NCBI GenBank assembly: GCA_023150915.1 | Contig: JAKLKA010000068.1 | Coordinates: 1 to 56,749 of the forward strand | Reading direction: 5' to 3' | DNA from: Polyangiaceae bacterium | GTDB taxonomy: Bacteria > Myxococcota_A > Polyangia > Polyangiales > Polyangiaceae | DNA length: 56,749 bases | Shown here: piece by piece, positions 1 through 14,029 of the stretch | Layout: each line of letters starts with the position of its first letter | Position numbering within the stretch: position 1 is the stretch's first letter | The notes under the pieces: generated by a model | The model's database searches: none | Told to the model about the DNA's origin: nothing | Seen by the model: the letters and a program-made list of their open reading frames with translations, nothing else | Made by a program: the position numbers and the translations under genes

Positions 1-96
1 GGCGGCGGCGGCGGCGGCGGTGGCCGCGGCGGCGGCGGCGGTGGTGGCGATCGCGGCGGCCGTGGCGGCCGTGGCGACCGCGGCGACCGCTGGTGA
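1..96 (+). CDS. C-terminal tail of an RGG-box (probably RNA-binding) protein, 5' end outside window
   Basis: Only the last 31 codons are present. They read as a Gly run with interspersed Arg and Asp (GGRGGRGDRGDRW) and end in TGA. Gly/Arg tails like this are common at the C terminus of RRM-type RNA-binding proteins and some DEAD-box helicases, where the tail adds non-specific RNA affinity. The body that would tell them apart lies upstream of the window, so the family is inferred. A terminator follows 25 bases after the stop, so this is the last gene of its transcript. Confidence 0.7.
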   Translation, partial: GGGGGGGGRGGGGGGGDRGGRGGRGDRGDRW

Positions 97-355
97 GCTG
101 AAGCGCACCCGCACGAGAAGAGCGAGTCGGCCTCCGGTCGGCTCGCTTTTTCTTTTCTCAGTCGCCGAGCGCGTGCCCCTCCATGATGTCCTGGTCGGGA
201 CAAGCTCTCGGCACGCACCGGGCGTGCCCTCGCCGAAGAGTCCGGTGAGCGAATCGACCACGCCCGAGCCCCGAAGGGCACGTGATGACGTCTGCCATGC
301 GCTGCCTCCTCGGGGGCAAAGCCGCACGGGAGGCGCGAGGGGGACACGTGCGCCG
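97..355. other. Intergenic junction between RGG-tail gene and accessory region
   Basis: Apart from the terminator at 122-156 I see no gene, tRNA or copy of the tRNA-Asn repeat found at 7991 and 13950. The accessory region therefore has no visible left attachment site here. Confidence 0.5.
122..156 (+). terminator. Rho-independent terminator after the RGG-tail gene
   Basis: A 10-bp stem (122-131 with 137-146, two G-U type pairs) with a 5-base loop is followed at once by a T-rich run (147-156). It sits just downstream of the stop codon at 96. Confidence 0.75.
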
Positions 356-952
356 TCAGGTGCGCGCGTGCCCCGAGGCTGCATAGAGGGCCGCCGCCCA
401 GGGGGGCCCCTTGGTCTTCGCGGCACGCCACGCAGCTTCGAACTCGTGCTCGTCGACGCAGTAGAGCGCCGGGTTCCAGGGATGTGGGTCAGCGACCACG
501 AACACGCGCTCGTCGGGGATGTGCTCCAGGACGAGCACGTAGTGCTTCTCCACGTAGCTCTCCCCGCCGGTGGGTGGCACGAAGCGGACGAGCGCGAGTG
601 CCATCCACAGCCCGCCGGGCTCGCGGAACTGCGCCACGTCGTGGGTGTTCGGTCGGTAGACGGCCAGGCCAGCCGCGTGCGCGAGGGCGCGTACGTCCTT
701 CTCGAAGAGCCCGACCTTTGGAAGCCGCGCCTCGACCCGAGCTCGGGTGGCGGCATCAAGACCCGCGAGCAGGACGGTTGCGCCGACTCTGGCTGAGGTC
801 GCTCTCAGCTTCCGTGCCGCGGTGATCAGCGCGAAGAGCCCGCAGGCGTAGTCGCCCTCACCCTGCTTTGCGACTCGCAGCTCTTGCAGCGCCGAGGGCA
901 CGGTCGCCGTCGAGCGGGTCGGCTCGATGAACGGCCCGCGCCTTCCCGTCAC
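356..952 (-). CDS. C39-like (papain-fold) cysteine peptidase, third gene of the HTH-PIN operon
   Basis: 198 residues with the signature of a papain-like/C39 peptidase: Gln30 (oxyanion hole candidate), Cys37 in GDYACGLF at the start of a hydrophobic helix, His137 in EKHYVLVL, and Asp155 in VVADPHPWNP. The order, spacing and surrounding pattern (hydrophobic strand after His, DP turn after Asp) match the C39 peptidases that process double-glycine leaders and their stand-alone relatives. There is no signal peptide, ABC transporter or leader peptide nearby, so a bacteriocin role is not supported. The GTG start at 952 overlaps the stop of the PIN gene (GTGA), so it is translated with the toxin candidate. 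Substrate unknown; cleavage of the antitoxin or of a cell target is speculation. Confidence 0.6.
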   Translation of the reverse strand: MTGRRGPFIEPTRSTATVPSALQELRVAKQGEGDYACGLFALITAARKLRATSARVGATVLLAGLDAATRARVEARLPKVGLFEKDVRALAHAAGLAVYRPNTHDVAQFREPGGLWMALALVRFVPPTGGESYVEKHYVLVLEHIPDERVFVVADPHPWNPALYCVDEHEFEAAWRAAKTKGPPWAAALYAASGHART

Positions 953-1515
953 CGTGTGCCTGCTGCCTGGCCGTGTTGGCGCACGGCGGCGACGAGATCG
1001 GGCACGACGCGTCCGAGCCGCTCGAGCAACTCATCGAAGGTCACGGGGGGCTTCACGAGATCGGCCGCCTGCTCGCGCAGCATCGCCACGAAGCCTTCGG
1101 GATCGAGGTCGAAGAGGTTGCAGAGGAACTCGTCGGGCGACTGAGCTTCGAGCCCCTCCGGGAGAGGTGCGAAGTCTTTGAGGTTCGACGTCGTGATCAC
1201 CTGCGCGCCGGCCTTGACCGCGGCAGCGACAACGTGGCGGTCCTTCTCGTCGTTCTGAAGTCCGGCGACGAGCGACGAGTAGCCAGTGACCTCCGCTTCG
1301 GGGAAGTACTTCTCCATCGTCGCCCGCAGCCTCGCGGCCTTGTCGGCGGCCATCGTGCCAGTCGAGACGAGGTTGCGCTCCATCTCGTCGAGAATCTCGG
1401 CGCTCCATCGGAGCTGGTAGAAGCCCGCGGCAGCGGCGCGCAAGACCGTGTCCCGGAGCGTGAGCGGGAACAGCACGTTGGCGTCGACGACGACGATGAA
1501 GGGCGCCGGGACCAT
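949..1515 (-). CDS. PIN-domain nuclease (VapC-like toxin candidate)
   Basis: 188 residues. The PIN acidic residues are visible: Asp11 in VVVDANVLFP, Glu44 in ILDEMERN, Asp92 in NDEKDRHVV, and a fourth in TTSNLKDF. These coordinate the metal of a single-strand RNase. The first ~125 residues are the PIN fold. A C-terminal helical extension of ~60 residues makes it longer than a classical VapC (~130). It lies 21 bases downstream of the HTH gene and overlaps the peptidase gene by 4 bases. By family it should cleave RNA when freed from its partner. The HTH protein is the natural antitoxin/regulator candidate, though it is not a standard VapB. Confidence 0.8.
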   Translation of the reverse strand: MVPAPFIVVVDANVLFPLTLRDTVLRAAAAGFYQLRWSAEILDEMERNLVSTGTMAADKAARLRATMEKYFPEAEVTGYSSLVAGLQNDEKDRHVVAAAVKAGAQVITTSNLKDFAPLPEGLEAQSPDEFLCNLFDLDPEGFVAMLREQAADLVKPPVTFDELLERLGRVVPDLVAAVRQHGQAAGTR

Positions 1516-1536
1516 GAAACCTCGAGCCGAACCCTA

Positions 1537-2034
1537 CTACTTCAGCTCGGAATCGTACCCGCCGAACTCCTGCGTCATCTGCGAAAGCTCGCGAAGACCT
1601 GCGCGCCGATCCTTGTCACGCTTGTCCTTGAACTCGAGCACGTCTTCGATCCGCAGCCGCCGATGCTTGCCGGTCTTGCGGAAGGCGATGCGCCCCTCGT
1701 CGAGAAGTCGCACGAGGTACTGCCGCGACACGTTGAGGAGATCCGCCGCCTGCTGCGTGGTCACCTCGCGGCCAACAGGCACGACGGTGATCGAGTCGCC
1801 GCGAGCGAGAACCTCAGCCACGCGCTCGAGCACGTAGAAGACCGACTCGGGAAGCGCGATCGTCTCCCCCTTCGGACCGACGAGCTGGCACTTGGGCGCT
1901 CGTCGCTTCGGCTGGTGGACCATCCCCTCGAGCGCCCTGGACAGCGCGGCCACCTGAGCCTGCTGCTCGGGCGGGGCGGCGACCGGGGTCATCCGGCGGA
2001 TCAGGTCTTCCATCGTGTGCGCTGCGGCTTCCAT
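1537..2034 (-). CDS. Excisionase-family helix-turn-helix protein, antitoxin/regulator candidate of the PIN gene
   Basis: 165 residues. Residues ~90-135 are an excisionase/MerR-like HTH_17 domain: TTQQAADLLNVSRQYLVRLL, then a DEGRIAFRKTGKHRRLRIEDV wing. The N-terminal ~85 residues are helical with no recognised domain. The ATG at 2034 was chosen over an upstream in-frame ATG (2103) because GGAGG stands 7 bases before it. It is the first gene of a leftward operon with the PIN nuclease and C39-like peptidase. HTH_17-PIN pairs are a known type II toxin-antitoxin arrangement, so autoregulation of its own promoter is expected (inference). Confidence 0.75.
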   Translation of the reverse strand: MEAAAHTMEDLIRRMTPVAAPPEQQAQVAALSRALEGMVHQPKRRAPKCQLVGPKGETIALPESVFYVLERVAEVLARGDSITVVPVGREVTTQQAADLLNVSRQYLVRLLDEGRIAFRKTGKHRRLRIEDVLEFKDKRDKDRRAGLRELSQMTQEFGGYDSELK

Positions 2035-2392
2035 GGCGGAACCTCCACGAAAGAAGGTAGCGCCCATTCGCCGCAAACGCAACCCTGGCCGACGCATCCG
2101 CAACTGCGCTCCGGTAGAATCCTCGTCTTTTCAAGCAGGCTCGCCTTCACGCGCGTCGTGCTCCCAGCGCGATCGCCATCCCGGCGCGCGCAGCGCTCGC
2201 CGACGCGCGAACCAGCGGGGCGTCCTGCCCACGGCGTGTCCTCCGCAGCGGGCGGGCCTCGGCATCGCTAGTAACGATGTCTTGATTAACAGCTTCCACT
2301 GGTAAAGGATTCATTCCTAGCGCGCGAGCCTAGTCACGCCGGCTTTCCCAGCCTGCGCAACTGGTCAAGCGGGCGTTCCCAGCGGAGCCGAC
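2035..2392. other. Divergent intergenic region between the HTH-PIN operon and fic
   Basis: 358 bases holding the control regions of two divergent units. The HTH gene has a clear GGAGG site. Fic has GGAG seven bases before its ATG. I could not pick convincing -35/-10 pairs; a TTGATT at 2282-2287 upstream of fic has no well-spaced -10. No repeats or RNA genes seen. Confidence 0.4.
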
Positions 2393-3592
2393 ATGCCCAA
2401 ACGAACCACCGGACGATACGAGCGGACCGCCGTGGGAGGGGAGGAGGTCGCGGCCTTCGTCCCGCACGCGCTGCCGCCCGTGGATCCGCCCATCGTCGTC
2501 GACGCCGTCCTGGCCGAGCGCCTCCGTGCAGCCGAGCAAGCCCTCGTGCGCCTCGAGCTGGCCGGGGAGATGGTCCCCTCGCTCGACTGGTTCATCTACG
2601 CGTTCGTCCGTAAAGAGGCCGTGCTCTCGTCGCAGATCGAGGGAACGCAGGCGACCCTGGTCGACTTGCTCACGTTCGAGGCGCAGGACGGCGGCGAACA
2701 CAGCGCCGCACCCAACGCCGACGTCGAAGAGGTGTGCAACTACCTCGACGCGATCGCCTACGCGCGCACGCAGCTCGCGGAACCGACGGGCCTGCCGCTT
2801 TCGATGCGCCTGTTGAGCGAGACGCACTCGCGACTCATGCGCGGCGTCCGCGGCGCCGAGAAGCTGCCCGGCGAGGTTCGTCGCAGCCAGAACTGGATCG
2901 GTGGAAGCCGGCCCGGCAACGCTGCGTACGTGCCGCCGCCTCCGCACGCGCTCGCCGAGGTGCTGGGCGCGTTCGAGAAGTACCTGCACGCAAGCGACGC
3001 GCTGCCGCCGCTCGTGCGCGCCGGGCTCCTGCACGTGCAGTTCGAGTCCATCCACCCGTACCTCGACGGCAACGGCCGCATCGGACGCCTGCTCGTGACG
3101 CTGCTCCTCGAGCACTGGAAGCTGCTCACCAAGCCGCTCCTGTACCTGAGCCTCTTCTTCAAGCGGCATCGCGAGGACTACTACCGTCGGCTCAACAACG
3201 TCCGCATCGACGGCGACTGGGAGGGCTGGCTCGATTTCTTCCTCGATGGCGTCGCGACGATCGCCGACGAAGCGGTCGCCTCCGCACGGGAGCTGTTCGC
3301 GCTCGTGGCGGTGGACCGCACGCGCGTGCTCGCGCACGAAGGGATGTCGGTGGTTGCGCTGCGCCTCTTCGAGCTCCTGCCGCGCCACCCCGTCGTGACT
3401 GTCGCATCGGTGATGAAGCTCGTGGAGACGACCAAGCCCACCGCGGGAAGGGCGGTCGACCTGCTCGTGGCCGCGGGCGTTCTCGTCGAGACGACCGGCA
3501 AGAAGCGCGACCGCTCCTTCGTGTACCGGAGCTATCTCGATCGACTTCGGGTCGGCACCGAGCTCGGTGGCGGACAGGTCCCCCGTCGCTGA
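2393..3592 (+). CDS. Fic-family protein AMP-transferase with N-terminal inhibitory helix
   Basis: 399 residues. The catalytic Fic motif is intact, HPYLDGNGRIGR at 221-232: His221 acts as base, and Asn227 with Arg229/Arg232 handles the nucleotide phosphates. An N-terminal inhibitory motif SSQIEG (79-84, Glu83) marks a class II Fic protein that blocks its own ATP site. The C terminus (~330-385) is a winged-helix domain. It would transfer AMP (or another nucleotide part) from ATP to a Ser, Thr or Tyr of a target protein. The start is supported by a GGAG ribosome site. It stands alone between two regulated cassettes, 216 bases before the next gene. Target unknown. Confidence 0.9.
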   Translation: MPKRTTGRYERTAVGGEEVAAFVPHALPPVDPPIVVDAVLAERLRAAEQALVRLELAGEMVPSLDWFIYAFVRKEAVLSSQIEGTQATLVDLLTFEAQDGGEHSAAPNADVEEVCNYLDAIAYARTQLAEPTGLPLSMRLLSETHSRLMRGVRGAEKLPGEVRRSQNWIGGSRPGNAAYVPPPPHALAEVLGAFEKYLHASDALPPLVRAGLLHVQFESIHPYLDGNGRIGRLLVTLLLEHWKLLTKPLLYLSLFFKRHREDYYRRLNNVRIDGDWEGWLDFFLDGVATIADEAVASARELFALVAVDRTRVLAHEGMSVVALRLFELLPRHPVVTVASVMKLVETTKPTAGRAVDLLVAAGVLVETTGKKRDRSFVYRSYLDRLRVGTELGGGQVPRR

Positions 3593-3730
3593 AGAAATCG
3601 TCGCGGGGCTCCGGGGCACGGGTCCTCGGTGAGTGGCCGCCGAAGCCCTCTCGCGGGGTAGGTGTCGCTTCACGGGGGGGAGGAGCCTTGGCGCCAACGT
3701 GGGCGATGCGCCGGCCACTTCACAGTCCTC

Positions 3731-3759
3731 TTCACAAATCCCGCCCGGTGCACTATGTT
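3731..3759 (+). promoter_or_regulatory. Predicted sigma-70-type promoter of the TIGR04255/XRE operon
   Basis: TTCACA (3731-3736, 5 of 6 to the -35 consensus), a 17-base spacer, and TATGTT (3754-3759, 4 of 6 to the -10). It lies about 50 bases before the GTG start at 3809. Confidence 0.5.
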
Positions 3760-3808
3760 CTACGCATGGGTGCCGACGCGCCCATGTCCAACGGAGGAGA
3801 CACGACCC

Positions 3809-4609
3809 GTGAACACGCCGCAGACCCCGCTTGTGGGGCCTCCACCAGCTGAGGTGCCTCTGGCCACGCCGCCGCTCGTGCGCGTGATCGCCCAGGTGCG
3901 GTTCCCGGTCATCGCGTCAGTCGAGAAGCGAGAGTTCATCGCCCCGTTTCAGGAGGCCATCCGGAGAGACTACCCCGTCCTCCGGCCCGAACAGAGCCGG
4001 AGCGTGGTGCTTGGTCCCGACGGCGTCCGCGACGCGCGGGCCACGACGGCGTGGCGCTTCCACGACGTGGGCTCGGACTGGAGGGTGACGCTCGCCCCCG
4101 ACTTCCTGGCGCTCGAGACGGGCCGCTACACCAGCCGCGACGACTTCCTGGCGCGCTTCCGCAGCGTCCTCCTCGCCCTCGAGGAGCACGTCGACCCGAA
4201 GGTGATCGACCGGCTGGGCGTCCGCTACATCGATCGGGTCACCGGAGCGAACCTCGCCGACCTCCCTGCGCTGGTGCGTCCAGAGGTGAGCGGAGTCCTC
4301 TCGACCCCGCTCGCGGATCTCGTGCGGCACGCGCTCTCGGAGCACGTGTTCGTCCTGCCAGAGGGGGCGGGGCTGGTGACGGCTCGGTGGGGTCTGGTCC
4401 CCGGCCGATCCACCGTGGACCCAGCGGCGGTCGAGCCCATCGAGGAGCCGAGCTGGCTGCTCGACGTCGACGCCTTCCAGGGAGACACACGCGCGCTCGA
4501 CGTCGACGCCACGGTCGCGCAGGCGCGGAGCTTCGCCGAGCGGATCTACAGCATCTTCCGGTGGGCGGTCACCGACGAGTTCCTGCGGCGCTACGGAGGA
4601 CAGCCATGA
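3809..4609 (+). CDS. TIGR04255-family-like protein, first gene of a four-gene coupled operon
   Basis: 266 residues. The pattern (an N-terminal PLATPPLVRVIAQVRFP strand, a central basic/aromatic sandwich, and RLGVRYIDRV) resembles the sporadically distributed TIGR04255 family, whose function is not established. I recognise it by general resemblance, not by a catalytic motif. The GTG at 3809 is chosen because GGAGGAG stands ~10 bases before it; the frame is open further upstream but lacks a good ribosome site. Its stop overlaps the next start (ATGA, 4606-4609), so it is coupled to the XRE gene. TIGR04255 genes are often found next to XRE-like regulators, which fits. Confidence 0.6.
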   Translation: MNTPQTPLVGPPPAEVPLATPPLVRVIAQVRFPVIASVEKREFIAPFQEAIRRDYPVLRPEQSRSVVLGPDGVRDARATTAWRFHDVGSDWRVTLAPDFLALETGRYTSRDDFLARFRSVLLALEEHVDPKVIDRLGVRYIDRVTGANLADLPALVRPEVSGVLSTPLADLVRHALSEHVFVLPEGAGLVTARWGLVPGRSTVDPAAVEPIEEPSWLLDVDAFQGDTRALDVDATVAQARSFAERIYSIFRWAVTDEFLRRYGGQP

Positions 4610-5319
4610 ACCTCCAGACCATCGACAGCAGTGGGCCTCTGTACGAGGTCACCACGTCGGCATCGATCTTCGGGCGGGAGCGGCTCCCCCGCCTGTCGGT
4701 GATCGTCGTCAGCGGTGCGCTCTCCGTGTCGGGCACGTCGTCGGCGGAGCCCAACCGTGTCTGGGAGGCGCCTTACGTCCACGAGTACGACGCGACCGCG
4801 AGCGGCGAGGGCTGGGTCGAGCCCGAACGCGAAGGCGCCGAGCAGCCGCACGAGGCCACGCGTGAGGCCGTCTCGGAGCTACGGCGCATCTCGGGCCTGA
4901 CCTGGGAGCAGCTTGGGCAGCTCTTCGCGGTCTCCCGCCGGAGCATTCACTTCTGGGCGAGCGGCAAACCCCTCAACGCGGAGAACGAGACGCGCCTCCT
5001 CCAGGTGCTCGACATCGTCCGAACCGCCGATCGGGGCGACGCGCGCTCCACACGCTCGGCGCTCCTCGACGTCCACGATGGATCTTCTGCCTTCGACCTG
5101 CTCGTGGAGGAGCGGTTCGACGAGGCGCGCGCGCGGCTCGGCGTAGGCGCAGGGCGTCCTCGCCCCGTGCTCGGGGAACTCAGCGCGGAGGCGAAGGCTG
5201 CACGTGCACCGCTTCGCCCGGAGGAGCTGGTCGAGGCGCAGCACGACCGCGTGCATCGGGACCCCGGGCGTGCACGCGCCGCCCGCACCGTGAGGAACTC
5301 GCGGCGTGGAACCACTTGA
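4606..5319 (+). CDS. XRE-like helix-turn-helix regulator, partner of the TIGR04255 gene
   Basis: 237 residues. A Cro/C1-type HTH lies at ~85-140 (AVSELRRISGLTWEQLGQLF, then VSRRSIHFWASGKPLN and a final helix). The N-terminal ~80 residues are beta-rich (PRLSVIVVSGALSVSG). The C terminus (~160-237) is charged and probably flexible. It overlaps the upstream gene by 4 bases and the downstream gene by 14, so the four proteins are probably made together. It could regulate the operon or serve as the DNA-binding subunit of a complex with the TIGR04255 protein. Confidence 0.7.
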   Translation: MNLQTIDSSGPLYEVTTSASIFGRERLPRLSVIVVSGALSVSGTSSAEPNRVWEAPYVHEYDATASGEGWVEPEREGAEQPHEATREAVSELRRISGLTWEQLGQLFAVSRRSIHFWASGKPLNAENETRLLQVLDIVRTADRGDARSTRSALLDVHDGSSAFDLLVEERFDEARARLGVGAGRPRPVLGELSAEAKAARAPLRPEELVEAQHDRVHRDPGRARAARTVRNSRRGTT

Positions 5320-6154
5320 TGCCGATGGCTGCGCTTCAGTCGACGCTGCGCTCCTGACTTGGCGGCAGGGCGACTGCGTCGTGGGCGAGCAGTGGTTCGT
5401 GTTCCGCACGGACCTCGAACGGCCGCTGACGCTGGACGGCGCGGCAGCGTCCGCGGAGGGCGTCGACACGGCTGAGTCCGAGGTCTTCGGCTTCATGGTG
5501 CTCACGCAGACGTGCGACCTCGTGAGGAAGTGCAGCGAGCGGCCTTTCGTCGAGGTGTGCCCGCTCGTCGAGGTCGACGAGGCCCAGCACCGGGAGATCG
5601 AGCGGGGCCGCCGACCGAACTACGCGTTCGTCCCCGCGCTGGCGGACCGGCGCCTCGTCGGAGACCTTGATCGTGTGATGACCATCGAGAAGGCGGTCGT
5701 CGCCGGCTGGGATCGCGTGGCCGGCTGGCAGACCGACGCCGAGGCCCGCCGGCTCGCGCTCGCCCTCGCGAGAAAGCGGGCGCGCGTCGCGTTTCCAGAC
5801 GACTTCGTTGCGTTCGCCACGCCCCTCATGAGCCGGATGTCGTCGAAGCACGACAAGCAGAGCGACGAGGGCCGGGCGCTGCGAGCCCTGCGGGAGATTC
5901 GTGTTCGCGCGGAGCCGTCTTGGGATGCCGACGCGGTGAAGCTCGCGTTCTGGTTCATCCGGGACGCGGACGACGCGACGTTCGAGGGCAAGCGCTGGGA
6001 TCAGTTCCTCGAGGAGTGGCAGAAGCGGATTCCGAAGGGCGGACGCTTCGTCGACGTCCAGGCGGTGGTGCAGACGCTCGACGACCTGACCGCCCGCGAG
6101 TACGTCGAGAGCGACCCGCTGGACCTCGACTACCTCAGCACGCGTGATGGCTGA
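5306..6154 (+). CDS. Conserved-looking protein of unknown function with a QTCDLV motif
   Basis: 282 residues, no family name I can give with confidence. Early sequence has LTWRQGDCVVGEQWFVF, then a hydrophobic strand running into LTQTCDLVRK (near residues 66-75). The middle is rich in Arg/Lys helices. The C terminus has a second alpha/beta block (AVKLAFWFIRDADDATFEG). The VLTQTCDLV strand with a Cys-Asp pair looks like a functional site. GTG start at 5306 with GAGGA about 10 bases upstream; it overlaps the XRE gene by 14 bases and the next gene by ~11. Function unknown; co-translation with an XRE/TIGR04255 pair suggests an effector or sensor in that module. Confidence 0.55.
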   Translation: MEPLDADGCASVDAALLTWRQGDCVVGEQWFVFRTDLERPLTLDGAAASAEGVDTAESEVFGFMVLTQTCDLVRKCSERPFVEVCPLVEVDEAQHREIERGRRPNYAFVPALADRRLVGDLDRVMTIEKAVVAGWDRVAGWQTDAEARRLALALARKRARVAFPDDFVAFATPLMSRMSSKHDKQSDEGRALRALREIRVRAEPSWDADAVKLAFWFIRDADDATFEGKRWDQFLEEWQKRIPKGGRFVDVQAVVQTLDDLTAREYVESDPLDLDYLSTRDG

Positions 6155-7658
6155 GCCGACGACCACGAACGACTGGTGCCAGACCCTCGGCATCACGCCG
6201 CCGAAGCTCGAGGCGGTCGCGGGCCATCGCGAGGCGAACACGTTCGCGCTCCTGCTCGTGGCGTTGCTCGAGCGCGGCGAGCCGATGACGCTGGCCGAGG
6301 TGGCGGCCCGCTTCGAGGAGGCCGACATCGCGGAACGCTCGCGGGCGCTGCTCTCGCTGCAGCGCTGCAAGCCAGGGCGGCCGCCGGTCTACCGCGAGGG
6401 CGACCTCTACCACCTCGGCCCGCACGACGACGAGCTCGACCTCTGGGTGTTCCGGCTCGGGCTGCGCCCACCGAGGGTCGCTCGGACTCCGCCGAAGGAA
6501 ATCGAGGCCGCGCCGCTCCCCGGGCCCGACACCGCGCTCACCGTCGGCGAGCTGGACGAGGCGTGGAAGGACGCGAGCCTCTCCAGCTGGTCGGCCCAGC
6601 GCCTGGCGGTCGCGGTGCTCGACGCCCACGACGGGCCGCTCACGCCCGCCGAGGTCGTGGCGGCCGTCGCGGCGCGCACGAAGTGGCATGGCCTCAAGGA
6701 GGACGCCGCGAAGTTCAAGCGTCGCGGCAGCGCCGTCGAGGTGCTCGCGGACGGCCGGTGGGCGATCGCCCCGGACGCAGACGCGACCGTGAACCAGGCG
6801 CGGTCAGCCGTGCGCGACCGCGTCGCCCTCGCACGCCGGTACGCGACGGTGCGCACCGACCCTGCCGTCGTCGAGCAGCGGCGCGCGGAGTGGGAGAAGA
6901 AGCGCGCCGCACACGGGGCCGAGCTCGCGAGCCTCTCTCGGGCGCTGCTCGTCGCGTTCCCGCCGGCCCGGCCCGAGGCGGTGGCGCTCCTCGATGTCGG
7001 CGAGCACGGGATCACGACCTTCGTCGGCGACGAGCTCTCGTCGCTGCCGTCGCGGCTCGCCGCGTTCGACATCCTCGGCGCCATGGACGTGCGCGGGCTC
7101 TTGCGCGCGCTCGGCTTCGATCCCGGCGAGCGCCGGCTCGCCGAGCTTGGGCCGCCGCAGAAGACCAAGAAGCTCAACCAGCGGGGGCGCACGCTGAAGA
7201 TCACGACCGCGCTTCTCGTTCAGGGCTCGTGCGGCATCGGCAAGCCCTTCGGCGACGAGAAGAAGCTCGCCGAGTACCTGGCCAAGGGCGACGAGACCAA
7301 GCTGCGTCGCCGGCTCGAAGCCGACGTGAAGTCGCTCTACGCGCTCTACGAGTACGGCCGCCTCCACGGCGCGGTGCGGCTGCGCTGGGGCTTCCTCGAC
7401 GAGCGCATCCCCGCGCCGTGGGTCCACCGCGACGAGCCGATGCTCCACGACCTGAAGCGGTCCGCGCTGGCGATGAACGTGCCGCTCGAGGTCGTGGTCG
7501 GCAGCGCGCCGGGGTGGGGCGAGCCGTGGTCGCGCGTCCGCCTCGCGCACGTCGAGCAGGACGCGAATGGCTGGCGCACGTGGCTGGTCGACGAGGACGG
7601 CTTTCCGATCGACGAGGACGAGGTGCAGCGCGCCAGGCTGCCGGTGGCGCTCCACTGA
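6144..7658 (+). CDS. Large winged-helix protein of unknown function, last gene of the TIGR04255 operon
   Basis: 504 residues (GTG 6144; an ATG follows directly at 6147). Residues ~30-110 look like a winged helix: NTFALLLVALLERGEPMTLA, then a paired-Arg helix and the YREGDLYHLG hairpin. Residues ~145-225 look like a second, HARE-HTH-like one: LAVAVLDAHDGPLTPAEVVA and a VLADGRWAI wing. The C-terminal ~100 residues form a small beta-rich domain (VPLEVVVG, WSRVRLAHV, GWRTWLVDEDGFPI) that could be a WYL/SH3-like ligand-binding fold; this is a weak inference. No catalytic motif seen. The start is inside the preceding gene. It may be a DNA-binding sensor controlling the module or its largest structural subunit. 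Confidence 0.5.
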   Translation: MMAEPTTTNDWCQTLGITPPKLEAVAGHREANTFALLLVALLERGEPMTLAEVAARFEEADIAERSRALLSLQRCKPGRPPVYREGDLYHLGPHDDELDLWVFRLGLRPPRVARTPPKEIEAAPLPGPDTALTVGELDEAWKDASLSSWSAQRLAVAVLDAHDGPLTPAEVVAAVAARTKWHGLKEDAAKFKRRGSAVEVLADGRWAIAPDADATVNQARSAVRDRVALARRYATVRTDPAVVEQRRAEWEKKRAAHGAELASLSRALLVAFPPARPEAVALLDVGEHGITTFVGDELSSLPSRLAAFDILGAMDVRGLLRALGFDPGERRLAELGPPQKTKKLNQRGRTLKITTALLVQGSCGIGKPFGDEKKLAEYLAKGDETKLRRRLEADVKSLYALYEYGRLHGAVRLRWGFLDERIPAPWVHRDEPMLHDLKRSALAMNVPLEVVVGSAPGWGEPWSRVRLAHVEQDANGWRTWLVDEDGFPIDEDEVQRARLPVALH

Positions 7659-7962
7659 CGCGCGCCGAGAGCGTGCGCGCGGCGCCAGATTTCCGCCCGC
7701 CGCGTGTCCCACTCGCCAGAGTCAACCAGGTGCTCTTTGGTGTTAAGCGCCGCGGAGGCGTCTCTGGGTGTCTCTCGACGCGCGAGAGCCCAGAACGATC
7801 CCGAGAGCACCTCGTCGATGGTCTCCGACGAGACGCGCGCGCTCTCGACGAGAGCACCGCGGCACCTGGTCGCCGATGCTGCGTCGCGCGGAAGCCCGGG
7901 AAGAACAGGGCCTAAACGGCGAGAGCCCCGACGGCAGGACTGGCGAGGCTCTCTGTAAACCG

Positions 7963-7987
7963 CCCACCGTCGATGACTCGCGGTGGG
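7963..7987 (-). terminator. Possible terminator abutting the distal tRNA-Asn repeat
   Basis: A 7-bp stem (CCCACCG at 7963-7969 with CGGTGGG at 7981-7987), 11-base loop, and a short TTT on the minus strand downstream. It sits just past the stranded tRNA 3' end, where the native tRNA terminator would be before insertion of the element. The T run is weak. Confidence 0.35.
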
Positions 7988-7990
7988 GTA

Positions 7991-8015
7991 AAATGGCTCC
8001 AGCTCCTGGACTCGA
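7991..8015. repeat. Attachment-site repeat (distal): 25-bp copy of the tRNA-Asn 3' end
   Basis: Identical over 25 bases to 13950-13974, the T-arm/acceptor end of the complete tRNA-Asn gene, in the same orientation. The flanking bases differ on both sides (7990 a versus 13949 g; 8016 c versus 13975 a). No tRNA body adjoins this copy. This is the typical scar of site-specific integration into the 3' end of a tRNA gene. Confidence 0.85.
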
Positions 8016-8155: not shown

Positions 8156-8187
8156 GTCAAAATCTATCCGCCATGCGTGGCGGATAG
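8156..8187 (-). terminator. Hairpin terminator of the leftward four-gene operon
   Basis: A perfect 10-bp inverted repeat (CTATCCGCCA 8164-8173 with TGGCGGATAG 8178-8187, 4-base loop) is followed on the minus strand by ATTTTG. It lies 110 bases beyond the last gene of the operon (stop at 8298). The T tract is short, so termination efficiency is uncertain. Confidence 0.5.
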
Positions 8188-8297
8188 TTGGCGGTAAGCG
8201 GCGAATGGACTCCCACGGCCGCTCGACGCGTGGCGCTCTCCGTCGCTCTCCGCTCGGCCCTTCGGGACGCATTCTCTCTGCTCGCTCAGTCCCGGCC

Positions 8298-9464
8298 TCA
8301 CTCCTGCGTCTCGCGGTCGGCCAACGCATACACGGCGTTCTTGCGGGCGCCGCGCTTGGTCAGGACGCCGTCGCTCACCAGCTTCTGCAGCCGCCGCTGC
8401 ACGGTGCGCAGAGGGGGCGCACCAGACCCGAGCGCCTCGATGATCGCTGCGCTGCCGCCGTGGCCGAGCCGCTCGAGCACCTCGTGGAGCCGCGCGTCGA
8501 GCTCGTCCGGCGGCGCCACGATCTTCCACGGCAGGTGGGACTCGTTGTCTTGCACGCGCCCGAGCTGCTCGAGCCGTTCCCAGAGCACACGCATCAGCGC
8601 TGACGAGAACTCCTCGAAGTAGGTCGTGAGGTCGCCATCGTCGGCGCGCACCATGCGGTGCGAGGGCGTCGTGAGCAGCTCGTGCTGCTCCACGGTCGCC
8701 TCCGTCAACATCAAGAAGCCGTTCGCGTCGACGTCGCCGACCCGAAACTCGTGATGCAGGACGACGCTGACCGACCTCCAGTCCGGATAGAGCAGCGTCA
8801 GCCCCCAGAAGAGCGTCGCCCCGCGCAGCACCGCCGACTGGGAAACGAGTGGATCCTGGTCCGCCCAGTCGAAGAGCGCCTTCACCTCGGGTGGCACGCG
8901 CGTGGCTTCCTTCTGGAGCTCGAGGAGCTTGGTGCGCTCGCGAGCCGAGAAGAGCTTCCAGTTGGGCGCGGTGCCCCACCAGGTTCCCTTCGGCGGCGGC
9001 ACTCCGGGTGTCGAGAAGCCCGAGCTGCAGAACCAGTAGACCATCGCGACCTCGGGCGTGAGCCGTCGGTCGGCTGGGCCCGTCGCCGTGAACTGCGCGA
9101 GCGCATCCTCGACGAGCGCTGCACGCGCGATGGCTTCTCCCGTGGACCTTCGCCGGTCGACCAGGCGCAGCCCCTTCAAGACGGCCTCGATCTCCTCGTG
9201 CGTGACATTCCCGTGGAGCTCACTGACGTTCCACAGGATGCGCATGCGCTTAGCGCGCGCGGCGAGCTCCTTCTGGCGGTAGTACGAGAGCGGCGAGGCG
9301 CGCATCTGGCCGGCCGCATCCGCGACGCGGGTGAGGTTGAGCACGAGCCTCGGCGTGAGGGTGTACCGCCAGGGCTGCGGAGGAAGGTTCTCCGGGCGGA
9401 ACAGCTCGCGGAACTGCTCGTCCGTCAGCGTGGGGTAGCGACGCCGGTCGCGAGCGCGGGTCAC
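8298..9464 (-). CDS. Degenerate Fic-like protein with C-terminal winged helix, last gene of the element operon
   Basis: 388 residues from a GTG at 9464 that overlaps the stop of the previous gene (GTGA). I see no assignable catalytic motif. The layout follows a Fic protein: residues ~75-120 match the N-terminal Fic region (SELHGN at 81-86 where an inhibitory helix would read S-x-x-x-E-G/N, then VTHEEIEAVLKG). A middle helical part has VPPEVKALFDW and DPLVSQSAVLRG, and a C-terminal winged helix spans ~325-385. Where HPFxDGNGR should stand there is only LLYPDWRSVSVVLHHEFRVG, so any Fic activity is lost or the resemblance is structural. The next best reading is an uncharacterised helical protein. 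Context: co-translated with a DUF1016 nuclease operon. Confidence 0.5.
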   Translation of the reverse strand: MTRARDRRRYPTLTDEQFRELFRPENLPPQPWRYTLTPRLVLNLTRVADAAGQMRASPLSYYRQKELAARAKRMRILWNVSELHGNVTHEEIEAVLKGLRLVDRRRSTGEAIARAALVEDALAQFTATGPADRRLTPEVAMVYWFCSSGFSTPGVPPPKGTWWGTAPNWKLFSARERTKLLELQKEATRVPPEVKALFDWADQDPLVSQSAVLRGATLFWGLTLLYPDWRSVSVVLHHEFRVGDVDANGFLMLTEATVEQHELLTTPSHRMVRADDGDLTTYFEEFSSALMRVLWERLEQLGRVQDNESHLPWKIVAPPDELDARLHEVLERLGHGGSAAIIEALGSGAPPLRTVQRRLQKLVSDGVLTKRGARKNAVYALADRETQE

Positions 9465-10696
9465 AGCCCAAGCTCCCGGCCGAGCACCTTCGCAACGAAG
9501 CCACCGGCGTGCTCGCCGGCCATCAGCTTGCGAATCCGCTCTTTCACCTCGGCGCCCGCGCCTCGACGTTCTGCCGCGGCAATCGTCGCGCGGTAGGCGT
9601 CCCACACGTCGGCGCCGGTGATCTCGTAGCCGTAGCCCTGGACGAGCCAGTGGAGCGAGAGCAGGCCCGCGCCGATCGCGAAAGAAGGCTCCTTCTCGCC
9701 AAAGTCGCGCGCTGCGCGTGCGAGCGTCTTCGGGTCACACGGCGTGCGGCTCGCGAGCGCGAGTGCGTCGTCATAGAGCCCTGCGTCCTTCGCCGCAGCG
9801 AACCATTTGCCCTCGTCGCCGGGTGTCGTCTTCACGAGGTCCCCAAGGATCTCGCTCGCAGGCTTATGCGGGTACTTCTTCGCGACCGCACGGAAGGTCG
9901 CGAGGTACGTGCCGGCCTGGTTCGCCTCGAGCCCGTAGCGCTTGTACGCCTCGTCGATGAGCCCCGAGGAGAGCAGCACCTCCTCGCAAGCGCGCGCGAT
10001 GGCGATAGAGCTGTCATTCAGACCGCGGCCTTCTTCGGCGTACCGGATAGCCTCGGCCTTCTCTCCCTTGGCGGCGAGCGCCTTCACGCCGTACTGGCGG
10101 TAGTGCCACATCTTGTAGGGCGCGAGCTCGAGCAGCGCGAGCACGTCGTCGTAGCGCTCGGCGGCGACCAGCGCGCTCAGGCAGTTAGTCGTGCCCTTGA
10201 AGAAGCCGCGCAGGCTCGGATCCGGGCTCCACGCAACCTTCACCGTATCGATGAGCCGATCGGCCCACGCCGAGGCGACCTCCTTGGACGCGCAGAGCGT
10301 GCCCCAATGATCGCCCAGCCACTCGATGTAGGGGATGCCGTCGTCCTGATACGCGTCGAATAGCCGCTCGAGCCACGCCTCGCGCGTCTTGGTGTCGACA
10401 GGGGCGTCCGCGATGATCGGCACCAGCTCCGCGATGGCGTTGTTCACTGCAGTGCCGATGGAGCCAGACGATCCGTCCACCTGCTCGATGGCGGGCGACA
10501 CACGCTCGAGGAACGCGATGGCTCCCTCGGCGGCGAGCACCGGATCCTTCTTCGCGACCTTCTTGATCTCGGCGACCGCCTGCTTGATGCGCGTGATCGC
10601 CGGCTGCGACTTCCAGCCGAAGGCGTGACGACGAAAGCGCGCCTTGAACTCCCACTTGTGCGTCTCGCCCGAAGGCGGTTTGCGCTTCGCCGTCAT
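9461..10696 (-). CDS. Helical-repeat protein resembling DUF6880-type proteins
   Basis: 411 residues, all alpha. The stretch HAFGWKSQPAITRIKQAV, then DPVLAAEGAIAFLERVSPAI and EQVDGSSGSIG, resembles the core of DUF6880-type proteins, which are TPR-like scaffolds usually beside SWIM zinc-finger or other helical-repeat proteins; the match is from memory and moderate. The rest consists of paired helices (YDDVLALLELAPYKMWHYRQ, AEAIRYAEEGRGL). The ATG at 10696 overlaps the upstream stop (ATGA, 10693-10696). No enzyme motif. It is probably a binding or scaffold subunit of the DUF1016 operon. Confidence 0.6.
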   Translation of the reverse strand: MTAKRKPPSGETHKWEFKARFRRHAFGWKSQPAITRIKQAVAEIKKVAKKDPVLAAEGAIAFLERVSPAIEQVDGSSGSIGTAVNNAIAELVPIIADAPVDTKTREAWLERLFDAYQDDGIPYIEWLGDHWGTLCASKEVASAWADRLIDTVKVAWSPDPSLRGFFKGTTNCLSALVAAERYDDVLALLELAPYKMWHYRQYGVKALAAKGEKAEAIRYAEEGRGLNDSSIAIARACEEVLLSSGLIDEAYKRYGLEANQAGTYLATFRAVAKKYPHKPASEILGDLVKTTPGDEGKWFAAAKDAGLYDDALALASRTPCDPKTLARAARDFGEKEPSFAIGAGLLSLHWLVQGYGYEITGADVWDAYRATIAAAERRGAGAEVKERIRKLMAGEHAGGFVAKVLGRELGL

Positions 10697-12294
10697 CGCG
10701 CCCCCAAGGCTCGCTCGAGATCGTCGCGAAGTGCAGGGAAGCGCTTGTACTCGGCCTGGAGCGCCGCCGCCCAACGCTTGGTCTCGTCCGTCTTGTCGCA
10801 CGCGGCGCAGGTAGCGACGAGCTCGGCGGCGTGGCCGTAGTGCCTGCGCCGCTTCTGCTCGGTCACGCCGGCGACTCGACTCTCTGCGGCCTTCTTCATC
10901 GCAGCGAGCACGGCCCTTCGCGAGGTCGCATCGGAGATGCCCGCAACACCAGCCAGCCCGAGGAGCGCATCGACCTCCGGCGTCGTGAGGCGCGGTTCCT
11001 CGGGATCGGTCGTCATCGCCTCGAGCTCGTCGAGGTCCGCCCCGCGGTGGAACATCGGATCGAGGTCGCGCCGCGCGGGCGTGCGCGATGCTCCGAGAAG
11101 CTGCGCGAGCAGCGGAAAGAGCAGGTGTCCAGGGTGCTCACCGTTCGACCAGCCAAGGCCTGGCGCGCTCGCCAGCAGCTTCGCCGCGGCTGCGAAGTCG
11201 TGCGAGAGCACGTGGAGCAGCGCCCGTTGTCGCGTAGCCTGCTTGGGGCACGCTTCGAGCGCTTCACCGACCCGCTTGCCGAGCGCTGGCTTGGTACTCG
11301 CGGAGCCGAGCCAGCGGCGAAGGCGCGACATGCTCGGGCTCGCGCGCCACGCTCGCTCGAAATACGAAGCCAGGTCCCTCCGCTCGAGTCTGTGTGCTGC
11401 GAGCGCTGCACCATCGAGGAACTCGCCGCGCGCGTAGTCCTTGTCGGTGACGAGCTCGGCCGCCTCGCCGAACGCCTTCAGCGCGGCCTGCCAATCCTTC
11501 GCCTCGACGAGGCTGTTGCACCACGCGCGAAGGTCGTCGGCTCGCTTCGTCGTGCGCGCTACCTTCGCCAGCCCCTCGGCTCCCTCGAGCCGCTGCACGA
11601 CTTCGCGAAGCCAGCGGTCCTCCTCCGTGTCCCAATCGCTGGTGCGCTGGGTGGCGGGCTTGCTCGCGATCAGCGTTCGCCACCGCGGAAGGAACGCAGC
11701 AAGGTCGGGGAGCGGCTCCACGGCGACGCGCTCCATCTCGCGCAGCGGCTCCCAGAAGTGCCCGACGCTGTCCACCTCGTCGATCGCCGCTCGGACTGCT
11801 TCTGCACGCTCAGCGACCGGAGCGAGCATGTACGCGGACACGACGTACTGCGTGGCGCACTCCGCGACGTCGGTGCCGAGCACCTCGTCGACCAGCTCGT
11901 GCTGTCCCAGGTCGATGTTGCCCTCGCCGATGGGCGGAAGCAGCGCGCCGAAGATGTTGTGCGCGGACGCGTAGTCGTTGCGGAGAAACGCCGCCGACCC
12001 GCGCCGAAGGTACTCATCGACCTCCGATGGATCGGCCTGGCCGACCTGTTCGGCGGCTTTCACGAACGCGAGCACCTCGGCCACCTGCTCGTCGGTCACT
12101 GGCGCTGGCGCCCAGCCCACGCCAGTGCGCGCCGCCCGAGCGATGAGCGATGCGACGACCCGGGCGTGCGCGCGGTCGTCCAGCTCGAGCAATACCTCGT
12201 GCACGACCTCCCGTAGCGCCTCGGCGGACATCGTGCCGAGCGCAGTGTCGAGATCAGAGGACACCTTCTCCACGACCTTCGGCGAGCGTCTCAT
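10693..12294 (-). CDS. TPR-like helical scaffold protein of the element operon
   Basis: 533 residues, almost entirely helical, with repeated paired-helix units such as LRRGSAAFLRNDYASAHNIF, LRAWCNSLVEAKDWQAALKAFG and LAAHRLERRDLASYFERAW. The C terminus (RRRHYGHAAELVATCAACDK, then RFPALRDDLERALG) is of a type often paired with DUF6880-like proteins. ATG at 12294 with GAGGG six bases upstream. It begins 8 bases after the DUF1016 gene and overlaps the next gene by 4. A structural or target-sensing role is inferred only from fold and operon. Confidence 0.6.
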   Translation of the reverse strand: MRRSPKVVEKVSSDLDTALGTMSAEALREVVHEVLLELDDRAHARVVASLIARAARTGVGWAPAPVTDEQVAEVLAFVKAAEQVGQADPSEVDEYLRRGSAAFLRNDYASAHNIFGALLPPIGEGNIDLGQHELVDEVLGTDVAECATQYVVSAYMLAPVAERAEAVRAAIDEVDSVGHFWEPLREMERVAVEPLPDLAAFLPRWRTLIASKPATQRTSDWDTEEDRWLREVVQRLEGAEGLAKVARTTKRADDLRAWCNSLVEAKDWQAALKAFGEAAELVTDKDYARGEFLDGAALAAHRLERRDLASYFERAWRASPSMSRLRRWLGSASTKPALGKRVGEALEACPKQATRQRALLHVLSHDFAAAAKLLASAPGLGWSNGEHPGHLLFPLLAQLLGASRTPARRDLDPMFHRGADLDELEAMTTDPEEPRLTTPEVDALLGLAGVAGISDATSRRAVLAAMKKAAESRVAGVTEQKRRRHYGHAAELVATCAACDKTDETKRWAAALQAEYKRFPALRDDLERALGAR

Positions 12295-12302
12295 CGCGAC
12301 CC

Positions 12303-13478
12303 TCAGCCTTCGCTGTTCGCGGAGCCCTCATCGGGCGCCGTGAGCCGCAGCACGCGCTCGGCCTCCTGACGCTCGCGCTCCAGCTCGGCGCGCAGCTCCT
12401 CCTCGGTCGGCAGGTACATCTGGTAGCGCGCCGCGAGGACTTGTTCGTTCTCGTCGGGCAGCGTGATGCGCACCATCGCGTCGTTCTTGTCGGAGCAGAG
12501 CACGATGCCGATCGTCTTCGCCTCGTGTTCTTCCCGTTGGAAGCGGTCGAAGTAGTTCACGTACATCTGCATCTGCCCGAGGTCCTGGTGCGTGAGCTTG
12601 CCCATCTTGAGATCGACGAGCACGAAGCACCGGAGCAAGCGGTTGTAGAAGACGAGGTCCACGTAGAAGTGGTCGCCCTCGAGCGTCATCCTCTTCTGCC
12701 GGGCTACGAAGCAGAAGCCCTTGCCCATCTCGAGGAGGAAGTCCTCGAGTCGGTCGATGATCGCCTGCTCGAGATCGCGCTCCTGCGCGGCCGGATTCTC
12801 GCGGAGGTCCGCGAACTCGAGGACGAATGGGTCCTTGAGGACGTCGCTCGGCACCGAGACCTGGTGGCCCCTCCGCGCGAGGGCGAGCACCTCCTCGGGG
12901 CTCTTGTTCTTCGTGAGCCGATCGAAGAGCAGCGCGCCCACCTGGCGCTCGAGCTCGCGCACCGACCAGCTCTCACGCGCCGCCTCGATCTCGTAGAACG
13001 CGCGCGCCTCGGGGCGCGTGACGCGCAGGAGCACGAGGTAGTGCGACCAGGCCAGAGAGGGCGGGAAGAGGAGCGACGACGCCGGCGAAAGGCTCAACAC
13101 CGCCGAGCCTTTCTCGAGGCCGTCCGCGTCCGCAGAAAGGCTCAACAGCGTTGAGCCTTTTCGGTCGCCAGCCCCAACCAGCGAGGAGCCACCGGGGAAG
13201 GCGAGGTAGAACTGCTTCATGCGCTTGAGGCTGGCGAGGCTGAAGCCCTTGCCGAACCGAGCGGAGAGGCGCTTGGCCACGCGCTTCATCAGCCCCTCGC
13301 CGTAGCCCGCACGCTCGGCGCCGTGCTGCTCGACCTCGACGATCTCGCGCCCGATGTGCCAGTAGGCGTGGACCATCGCCGTGTTGATCGAACGCGCGAC
13401 GCGCGAGCGCGACTCGTCGAGGATCGCGGCAATGCGCTCGTAGAGGTGTTCTTCGGGTTCCGGCTGGAGCTCGCTCAT
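12303..13478 (-). CDS. PDDEXK nuclease of the DUF1016/YhcG family, first gene of the element operon
   Basis: 391 residues. The N-terminal DUF1016_N region has INTAMVHAYWHIGREIVEVE and LSARFGKGFSLASLKRMKQF, the C-terminal part a PDDEXK core: Asp274 in FYVDLVFYNR and Asp289-x-Lys291 in FVLVDLKMG (family usually E/D-x-K), followed by QMQMYVNYFD. It should bind and cut nucleic acid; family members occur in mobile and defence loci. Between FYLAFP (~95) and LAWSHYLVLL (~142) there is a ~45-residue insert encoded by two palindromic 25-bp repeats, unusual for the family. The ATG at 13478 is the likely start (MSELQ), but a GTG at 13520 is open in frame. Confidence 0.85.
   Translation of the reverse strand: MSELQPEPEEHLYERIAAILDESRSRVARSINTAMVHAYWHIGREIVEVEQHGAERAGYGEGLMKRVAKRLSARFGKGFSLASLKRMKQFYLAFPGGSSLVGAGDRKGSTLLSLSADADGLEKGSAVLSLSPASSLLFPPSLAWSHYLVLLRVTRPEARAFYEIEAARESWSVRELERQVGALLFDRLTKNKSPEEVLALARRGHQVSVPSDVLKDPFVLEFADLRENPAAQERDLEQAIIDRLEDFLLEMGKGFCFVARQKRMTLEGDHFYVDLVFYNRLLRCFVLVDLKMGKLTHQDLGQMQMYVNYFDRFQREEHEAKTIGIVLCSDKNDAMVRITLPDENEQVLAARYQMYLPTEEELRAELERERQEAERVLRLTAPDEGSANSEG
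13088..13112. repeat. Intragenic palindromic repeat, copy 1
   Basis: Begins AAAGGCTCAA and ends GAGCCTTT. It is an imperfect hairpin inside the DUF1016 gene that shares most bases with the copy at 13136-13160. Confidence 0.8.
13136..13160. repeat. Intragenic palindromic repeat, copy 2 (perfect 10-bp stem)
   Basis: AAAGGCTCAA, 5-base spacer, TTGAGCCTTT: a perfect inverted repeat lying 23 bases from copy 1, in frame within the DUF1016 coding sequence. Confidence 0.85.
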
Positions 13479-13667
13479 GCGCTTGGTGACCCGAGGGAGC
13501 TCACCTCGCGCAGATCCCACGAAATCAGGGACTTGGCGTCGCGGCGCTCTCCGTCTCTCTCTGATTGGCTCGCTTTATACGCCAACTGAGTGGCGGACAC
13601 CAGGCGGAAAGAACACCAGGCGCCCGGTCGGGACGCCGCCCCGATGATCAACAGTCCACCCCCACGC

Positions 13668-13696: not shown

Positions 13697-13872
13697 GGAA
13701 ACGGAGGGTCGGCTGTTAACTGCGTCTCGGCTTCTCTCTCCCCGCGGGACCGAGGAGAGAGCGCAAATGCTGTCCCGCGCGAGGGAAAGTTGGCGTCGGG
13801 CGCTCTCTCGGCGCTCTCCGCGCGAACGCCGTCCTGGCGCGCACGAAGCGCGAAGAACGCGCGGGCGCGTTG

Positions 13873-13949: not shown

Positions 13950-13974
13950 GAAATGGCTCCAGCTCCTGGACTCG
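13950..13974. repeat. Attachment-site repeat (proximal): 3' end of tRNA-Asn
   Basis: Identical 25 bases to 7991-8015. This copy is part of the intact tRNA-Asn gene (acceptor stem, CCA and part of the T arm) and marks the tRNA-side end of the 6-kb element. Confidence 0.85.
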
Positions 13975-14029
13975 AACCAGGGACCCGGCGGTTAACAGCC
14001 GCCTGCTCTACCGACTGAGCTAAGCTGGA
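13953..14029 (-). tRNA. tRNA-Asn (anticodon GTT), CCA encoded
   Basis: Full cloverleaf on the minus strand: acceptor TCCAGCT / AGCTGGA, D arm GCTC-AGTCGGTA-GAGC, anticodon arm GGCGG-CTGTTAA-CCGCC with GTT at the centre, a 6-base variable loop, T arm CCTGG-TTCGAGT-CCAGG, discriminator G and encoded CCA. The 3' end is duplicated at 7991-8015 as an integration scar. Confidence 0.95.

Follow-up and report, generated by a model that had tools for sequence, protein, structure and literature searches.

The window analysed here is the whole of contig JAKLKA010000068.1 (56,749 nucleotides) of a Polyangiaceae bacterium, assembly GCA_023150915.1, and it carries four co-directional minus-strand genes in a compact set, transcribed in the order A-B-C-D. 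They encode a DUF1016/YhcG nuclease (A), a protein without a family match (B), a predicted helical solenoid (C) and a putative Fic-fold protein devoid of the catalytic motif (D). The first-pass annotation of this DNA had described a four-gene operon with one 8-base gap and three 4-base overlaps; the operon and the gap, at the A/B junction, are borne out, and the overlaps number only two, at B/C (ATGA) and C/D (GTGA). A codon-usage gene caller, purpose-written and seeded with A-D among other genes, returns the same four genes. The operon is beyond chance, because other genera have its core genes in the same order.

Among 377 sampled genomes of this phylum, with gene calling around the matches, D was found in 8 genomes (including the window's own), C in 34 and B in 17; of the eight D matches, two cover only part of the protein, and one of these, located inside a larger gene of G263, is doubtful. 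The exact four-gene set was found only in the window. Intact A-C-D, in the same order and on the same strand, is shared by the window and four other genomes (G006, G027, G357 and G209), representing five genera of Myxococcota; in G357 two additional genes separate A from C, and G209 has a remnant of B. Moreover, remnants of A and D flank an intact C in G080, which belongs to a fifth other genus, and a remnant of A precedes C in G159. Judging from gene order, the conserved core is A-C-D and B is optional: three of the four other intact loci lack it, and the fourth has just the remnant. The co-occurrence that the first-pass annotation had envisaged for four families is found for this trio; the four-gene set is not the conserved unit. 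In several genomes B accompanies C with neither A nor D, and C is not specific to the system.

The nuclease and C are also associated more widely. Among 27 genomes bearing C or B, six of the 28 C loci have a YhcG_C gene within 5 kb against 0.04 expected from the number of YhcG_C genes and the genome sizes, an excess of about 150-fold (Poisson P about 5e-12, a value that ignores the relatedness of loci and is hence optimistic). Two Paraburkholderia plasmids carry a DUF1016 gene and, after it, a gene for a 286-290-residue protein that belongs to no known family, followed by C; the plasmid nuclease is 40% identical to A, and this recurrence is separate from that in Myxococcota.

Protein B showed no match above cut-off in Pfam, PADLOC, NCBIfam or PHROGs, no relative with a solved structure was found, and B was not found on plasmids. 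That B and C could be paralogues was considered and rejected (profile comparison probability of 0.2%). Both had been put forward as helical-repeat proteins, which fits the all-helical predicted structure of C at a generic level; for B we infer a helical nature. In G154, a B-C pair 76-78% identical to that of the window lies about 2.6 kb from another tRNA-Asn gene and adjoins Cas3/Cas7 genes.

The nuclease and the pseudo-Fic protein

Protein A matches the Pfam families DUF1016_N (132.9 bits, cut-off 32.8, E 1e-38) and YhcG_C (194.7 bits, cut-off 32.5, E 1e-57), with both domains at full length. Residues E237/E245, D274, D289-L-K291 and Q302 are invariant in its relatives, and D274 and D289-L-K291 are unchanged in all six aligned proteins, one of them proteobacterial. 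At the level of sequence comparison this confirms A as a PD-(D/E)XK nuclease with intact catalytic residues; such a nuclease had been predicted, with D274 and K291 as the residues named. YhcG was placed in the PD-(D/E)XK superfamily in 2005 (PMC1189080), COG4804 has been listed as restriction endonuclease cargo of Tn7-like transposons (PMC8649781), and gene A matches 458 plasmid records. It also matches over nearly its full length (E 8e-139) the PADLOC phage defence candidate PDC-S02, a solitary DUF1016/YhcG nuclease. The likeness is that of the A protein: the PDC-S02 models examined describe one nuclease protein, whereas here A shares an operon with C, D and, in the window, B, none of these three having a PADLOC model. 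PDC-S02 is a candidate system, and no report of its anti-phage activity was found in the literature searched; nor was a partner or mechanism for DUF1016, which few papers mention. The linker of gene A contains two 25-nt near-perfect palindromes (AAAGGCTCAACnnnGTTGAGCCTTT, at 13088-13112 and 13136-13160). That they could be a dispersed repeat was rejected, no further copy being present in the genome when as many as 3 mismatches are allowed.

Protein D has no family model above cut-off in Pfam, PADLOC or NCBIfam. The first 11 Foldseek matches of its predicted structure (predicted local distance difference test, pLDDT, 77.7) are all Fic proteins, with E from 1.6e-5, and a profile built from seven D homologues hits 4rgl, a Fic protein (E 3e-4). 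In VIA-align comparisons D aligns with 4rgl at Z 17.8 over 282 residues (root-mean-square deviation, rmsd, 8.3) and with Shewanella Fic structures at Z 17.5 over about 300 residues, winged helix included in both cases; the Fic domain alone gives Z 17.2 over 230 residues with an rmsd of 3.1. The catalytic motif HxFx(D/E)GNGR and the inhibitory motif (S/T)xxxE(G/N) are both absent from all seven D members, among which conservation is highest in the winged helix (PLRTLQRRLQ...GARK). The predicted structure and the alignments confirm the proposed Fic fold without its active motif: D is modelled as a pseudo-Fic protein, with a Fic fold and a winged helix and with the catalytic motif lost.

The fold of D, including the C-terminal winged helix, is shared with SoFic and similar Fic proteins (4rgl, 3zcn, 3eqx). 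However, D differs from SoFic in having neither the catalytic nor the inhibitory Fic motif, and it does not match the PADLOC SoFic model. According to one report, SoFic acts in abortive infection by AMPylation, and its toxicity is regulated by its own C-terminal domain (PMC12249575). Without the catalytic motif D should not AMPylate, and a regulatory reuse of the SoFic-like architecture is plausible by analogy, given the regulatory part ascribed to that C-terminal domain. The possibility that D is a partner or decoy of the SoFic encoded in the window was rejected, the two showing no sequence relation beyond chance and no Fic gene having been noticed beside D at other D loci, whose neighbours were only partly scanned with Pfam.

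The D gene was found on no plasmid or viral contig, and the six D loci of a scan of 84,980 species are all in metagenome-assembled genomes (MAGs) labelled Myxococcales, Archangium or Deltaproteobacteria. A solo D lies at the contig end of an Archangium MAG (L097:6947-8017), near AbiEii and an SNF2-type helicase. At the five intact loci A and C are 64-81% identical, and in six of the ten locus pairs D is only 37-42% identical against 64-73% for A and C. Such fast divergence would fit a sensor, or a part facing changing phage signals.

The tRNA-Asn unit and its surroundings

The four genes lie in a 5.96-kb unit bounded by two identical 25-bp repeats, 5960 bp apart (Table 1). As in tRNA-associated integrative elements, the 3' end of the tRNA is repeated exactly and in direct orientation at the far boundary. 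Two genomes of the same genus (L108 and L109) show homology to the window that starts exactly at 13950/13951, and on the far side of the junction both have other DNA, so that a clean empty site was not seen in them. In one of the two, G276, this other DNA holds a serine recombinase and a tyrosine integrase, and no A-C-D. By these alignments the tRNA-Asn gene is an insertion hotspot and A-B-C-D one of its occupants, because the relatives resume homology at that position with different DNA beyond it.

Table 1. Features of the operon, of the repeat-bounded unit and of its left flank
Feature	Position	Strand	Remarks
Gene A, DUF1016/YhcG PD-(D/E)XK nuclease	12303..13478	(-)	391 aa
Gene B, no family match	10693..12294	(-)	533 aa; optional
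Gene C, predicted all-alpha TPR-like solenoid	9461..10696	(-)	411 aa
Gene D, pseudo-Fic with C-terminal winged helix (predicted)	8298..9464	(-)	388 aa; GTG start
Terminator-like hairpin 3' of D	8164..8187	(-)	10-bp stem then ATTTTG; -17.2 kcal/mol, z -4.3
tRNA-Asn(GTT)	13954..14029	(-)	insertion hotspot in the genus
25-bp direct repeat, tRNA-Asn 3' end	13951..13975		attachment-site copy at the tRNA gene
25-bp direct repeat of tRNA-Asn 3' end	7991..8015		outer attachment-site copy
SoFic gene, intact Fic motif	2432-3592	(+)	PADLOC SoFic E 5.5e-111; 5 kb from the operon

A search of the genome for PF00589 found no tyrosine integrase in the unit or in the rest of the window (contig C6). Exact repeats without an integrase could mean that the genes serve the movement of the element itself, with the YhcG nuclease aiding excision or integration in trans, and YhcG has indeed been tied by low-score fold recognition to archaeal Holliday-junction-resolvase-like templates (PMC1189080). 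Nevertheless, another occupant of the same tRNA-Asn brings a tyrosine and a serine recombinase with it and lacks A-C-D, and A-C-D loci stand in several contexts with no tRNA in view; we consider a role in movement very improbable.

The left flank (1-7990) was considered as native chromosome and this was rejected. Because its segments align with scattered sites in relatives, the flank looks accessory too, up to the contig end. Therefore the earlier claim that the four genes make up all the cargo of the element is valid for the 5.96-kb unit and not necessarily for the whole island, as this flank is accessory in appearance and neither the unit nor the window has an integrase. The flank holds the SoFic gene and, at 949-2034 (-), a PIN_3 gene with an HTH_17 gene, which together resemble a toxin-antitoxin pair; on its left side the contig has the character of a defence-type island. 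A 504-aa gene of no known family lies at 6144-7658 (+), and elsewhere the genome holds another copy of it that is 80% identical (G000:C5:23247-24738). Positions 1-97 have dozens of matches across relatives, at about 75-95%, and this dispersed repeat is the likely cause of the assembly break there. The motif GGCGCTCTC is repeated at 8229-8258, 13540-13569 and 13799-13820, close to both ends of the unit; these are possibly arm-type sites of a recombinase.

The hairpin downstream of D, with its ATTTTG, looks like the end of the transcript, judging from its sequence, and it falls under the T-run threshold of a separate scan. A search for sigma-70 promoters found none, a result that is uninformative for a GC-rich genome.

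Partners of gene C

The predicted structure of C is all-helical (pLDDT 88.7), and many of its best structure matches are tetratricopeptide repeat (TPR) proteins, with Z at most 9.4, which is in the range of generic helical matches. The model thus resembles a TPR-like solenoid at a generic level only. C has no match above the curated cut-offs of PADLOC, Pfam or NCBIfam; its N-terminal part shows a weak likeness to DUF6880 (PF21810; E 1e-3), a family of which it is not a member, since it scores 18.7 bits against the Pfam cut-off of 27.3, and of which no mention was found in the literature searched.

The most surprising result, outside the scope of the first-pass annotation, is the wide range of partners of C. 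The gene is present in 38 IMG/VR contigs, in most of them about 60% identical to the window protein, and was not found in deposited phage genomes. In 31 of these contigs C lies 3' of an ImmA/IrrE gene, usually with a helix-turn-helix (HTH) gene before it, and DUF2924 and a serine recombinase come after C where the contig extends far enough; they are mostly one prophage lineage and hence represent few independent events. Four other contigs have C 3' of HTH_17, PIN and a 750-aa gene, and two have it 3' of HipB-HipA (L156/157). The prophage order HTH - ImmA/IrrE - C - DUF2924 - serine recombinase is seen across L120-L154, with C at about 5990-7205; at L137, L148, L150 and L151 the HTH_17 - PIN - 750-aa genes replace HTH-ImmA and C is retained, as in an interchangeable slot. 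The HTH_17/PIN pair 5' of C on these four prophage contigs resembles that at 949-2034 of the window.

Within Myxococcota genomes, AbiEi or AbiEii genes (L068, L088) or Fic genes (a true Fic at L075) precede C or a fragment from its N-terminal part. Shortened versions of about 130-180 aa, corresponding to the N-terminal part only, occur at L088, L089, L090 and L087, one of them directly 3' of AbiEi-AbiEii. On plasmids C is found 3' of Tn3 TnpC, overlapping a RelE/ParE-type gene (L159) or near a SWIM/helicase pair; in the Burkholderiaceae plasmids L158 and L165 it shows translational coupling to Tn3 tnpC, and a site-specific integrase comes after it. The start codon of C often overlaps or abuts the upstream stop. 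The HipBA, AbiEi/AbiEii, PIN-HTH and ImmA/IrrE modules resemble the window in having the same C family 3' of a toxin or regulator gene, and the window differs from them in having a DUF1016 nuclease as its effector and a pseudo-Fic gene in last place.

These couplings of C with HipBA, AbiEi/AbiEii, PIN and HTH_17 (the L137 group), RelE/ParE and a true Fic are in line with the main rival explanation, a toxin-antitoxin (addiction) module that stabilises the island, in which A would be the toxin nuclease, D or C the antitoxin or autorepressor, and phage defence would be absent or a by-product. The operon also sits by itself in a tRNA-bounded unit that lacks an integrase, which points the same way. 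On the other hand, A is large and first in order and D comes at the end, some loci do without D or B, and the genes between DUF1016 and C vary (none, B, AbiEi, a SEC-C pair or X), a variation that would be unusual in a tight toxin-antitoxin pair; we hold an addiction module to be possible and rather unlikely.

It may also be asked whether C is a promiscuous, translation-coupled hitch-hiker, in which case A, B, C and D would be mere neighbours in a mosaic island, without joint function. Many unrelated families, including Tn3 TnpC, do precede C at short gaps or small overlaps, and B-C and D are found apart from the other genes. Nevertheless, the A-C-D order shared by five genera and the marked excess of DUF1016-C proximity make such an accident improbable.

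A more tentative idea, to which we lend some credence as a minority view, is that C represents a general family of toxin companions, one conserved TPR-like solenoid that would serve unrelated effectors (DUF1016 nuclease, HipA, AbiEii, PIN, RelE/ParE, ImmA/IrrE and Fic) as a universal subunit for holding, sensing or delivery, attached to them by translational coupling. C is about 60% identical between Myxococcota and the prophage contigs, and A-C-D would be the nuclease version, with the pseudo-Fic protein as its dedicated regulator. A shared companion of this kind would be more novel than the operon, its basis being gene neighbourhoods.

A candidate anti-phage module

The core trio recurs in related bacteria, and for this reason A-(B)-C-D probably represents an anti-phage (or toxin-type) system not described before. 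The more specific reading that we put first, a horizontally moving anti-phage module, probably abortive or DNA-degrading, is drawn from genomic context and has in our judgement about an even chance of being right. The defence-type character suggested by the first-pass annotation agrees with the surroundings: SoFic in the window, BREX in G080, Cas3/Cas7 by the B-C pair of G154 and AbiEii by the solo D. Its statement that no described system with this exact set is known stands for B, C and D, which are unmatched above cut-off in PADLOC, Pfam and NCBIfam, and needs amendment for A, which alone corresponds to PDC-S02; no system with these genes was found in the libraries searched. The arrangement would thus be a new variant of nuclease, helical partner and regulator on a small island, built on an already known candidate.

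Several observations weigh against an anti-phage module. D is rare, with six loci among 84,980 species, and stands without A or C in view at L097 and L101, the former cut by the contig end. C has many unrelated partners, a Tn3 regulator gene among them, so that its presence alone does not mean defence. Moreover, the defence neighbourhoods are single observations at several loci and may or may not amount to an enrichment over matched controls.

If the anti-phage module is nevertheless taken as a working model, A would be the effector nuclease that cuts nucleic acid, presumably DNA. C, together with B where present, might act as a TPR-like adaptor that keeps A and its partners in an inactive complex and, additionally or alternatively, carries A to its target. 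D could be a catalytically dead Fic-fold regulator or sensor that binds DNA or a nucleotide-type ligand and either represses the operon or licenses A. Infection would then alter the ligand or a host target, and D would let A act. We infer complex formation, inhibition and release, the signal of D, the DNA substrate and phage protection.

The conserved DUF1016-solenoid-pseudo-Fic operon offers a testable complex for nucleases that are common in mobile DNA. A Fic fold with catalysis lost and the winged helix kept looks like the conversion of an enzyme into a regulator in a defence setting. Finally, the reach of C across prophage and plasmid toxin modules points to a shared accessory subunit that is missing from PADLOC, PHROGs and Pfam.

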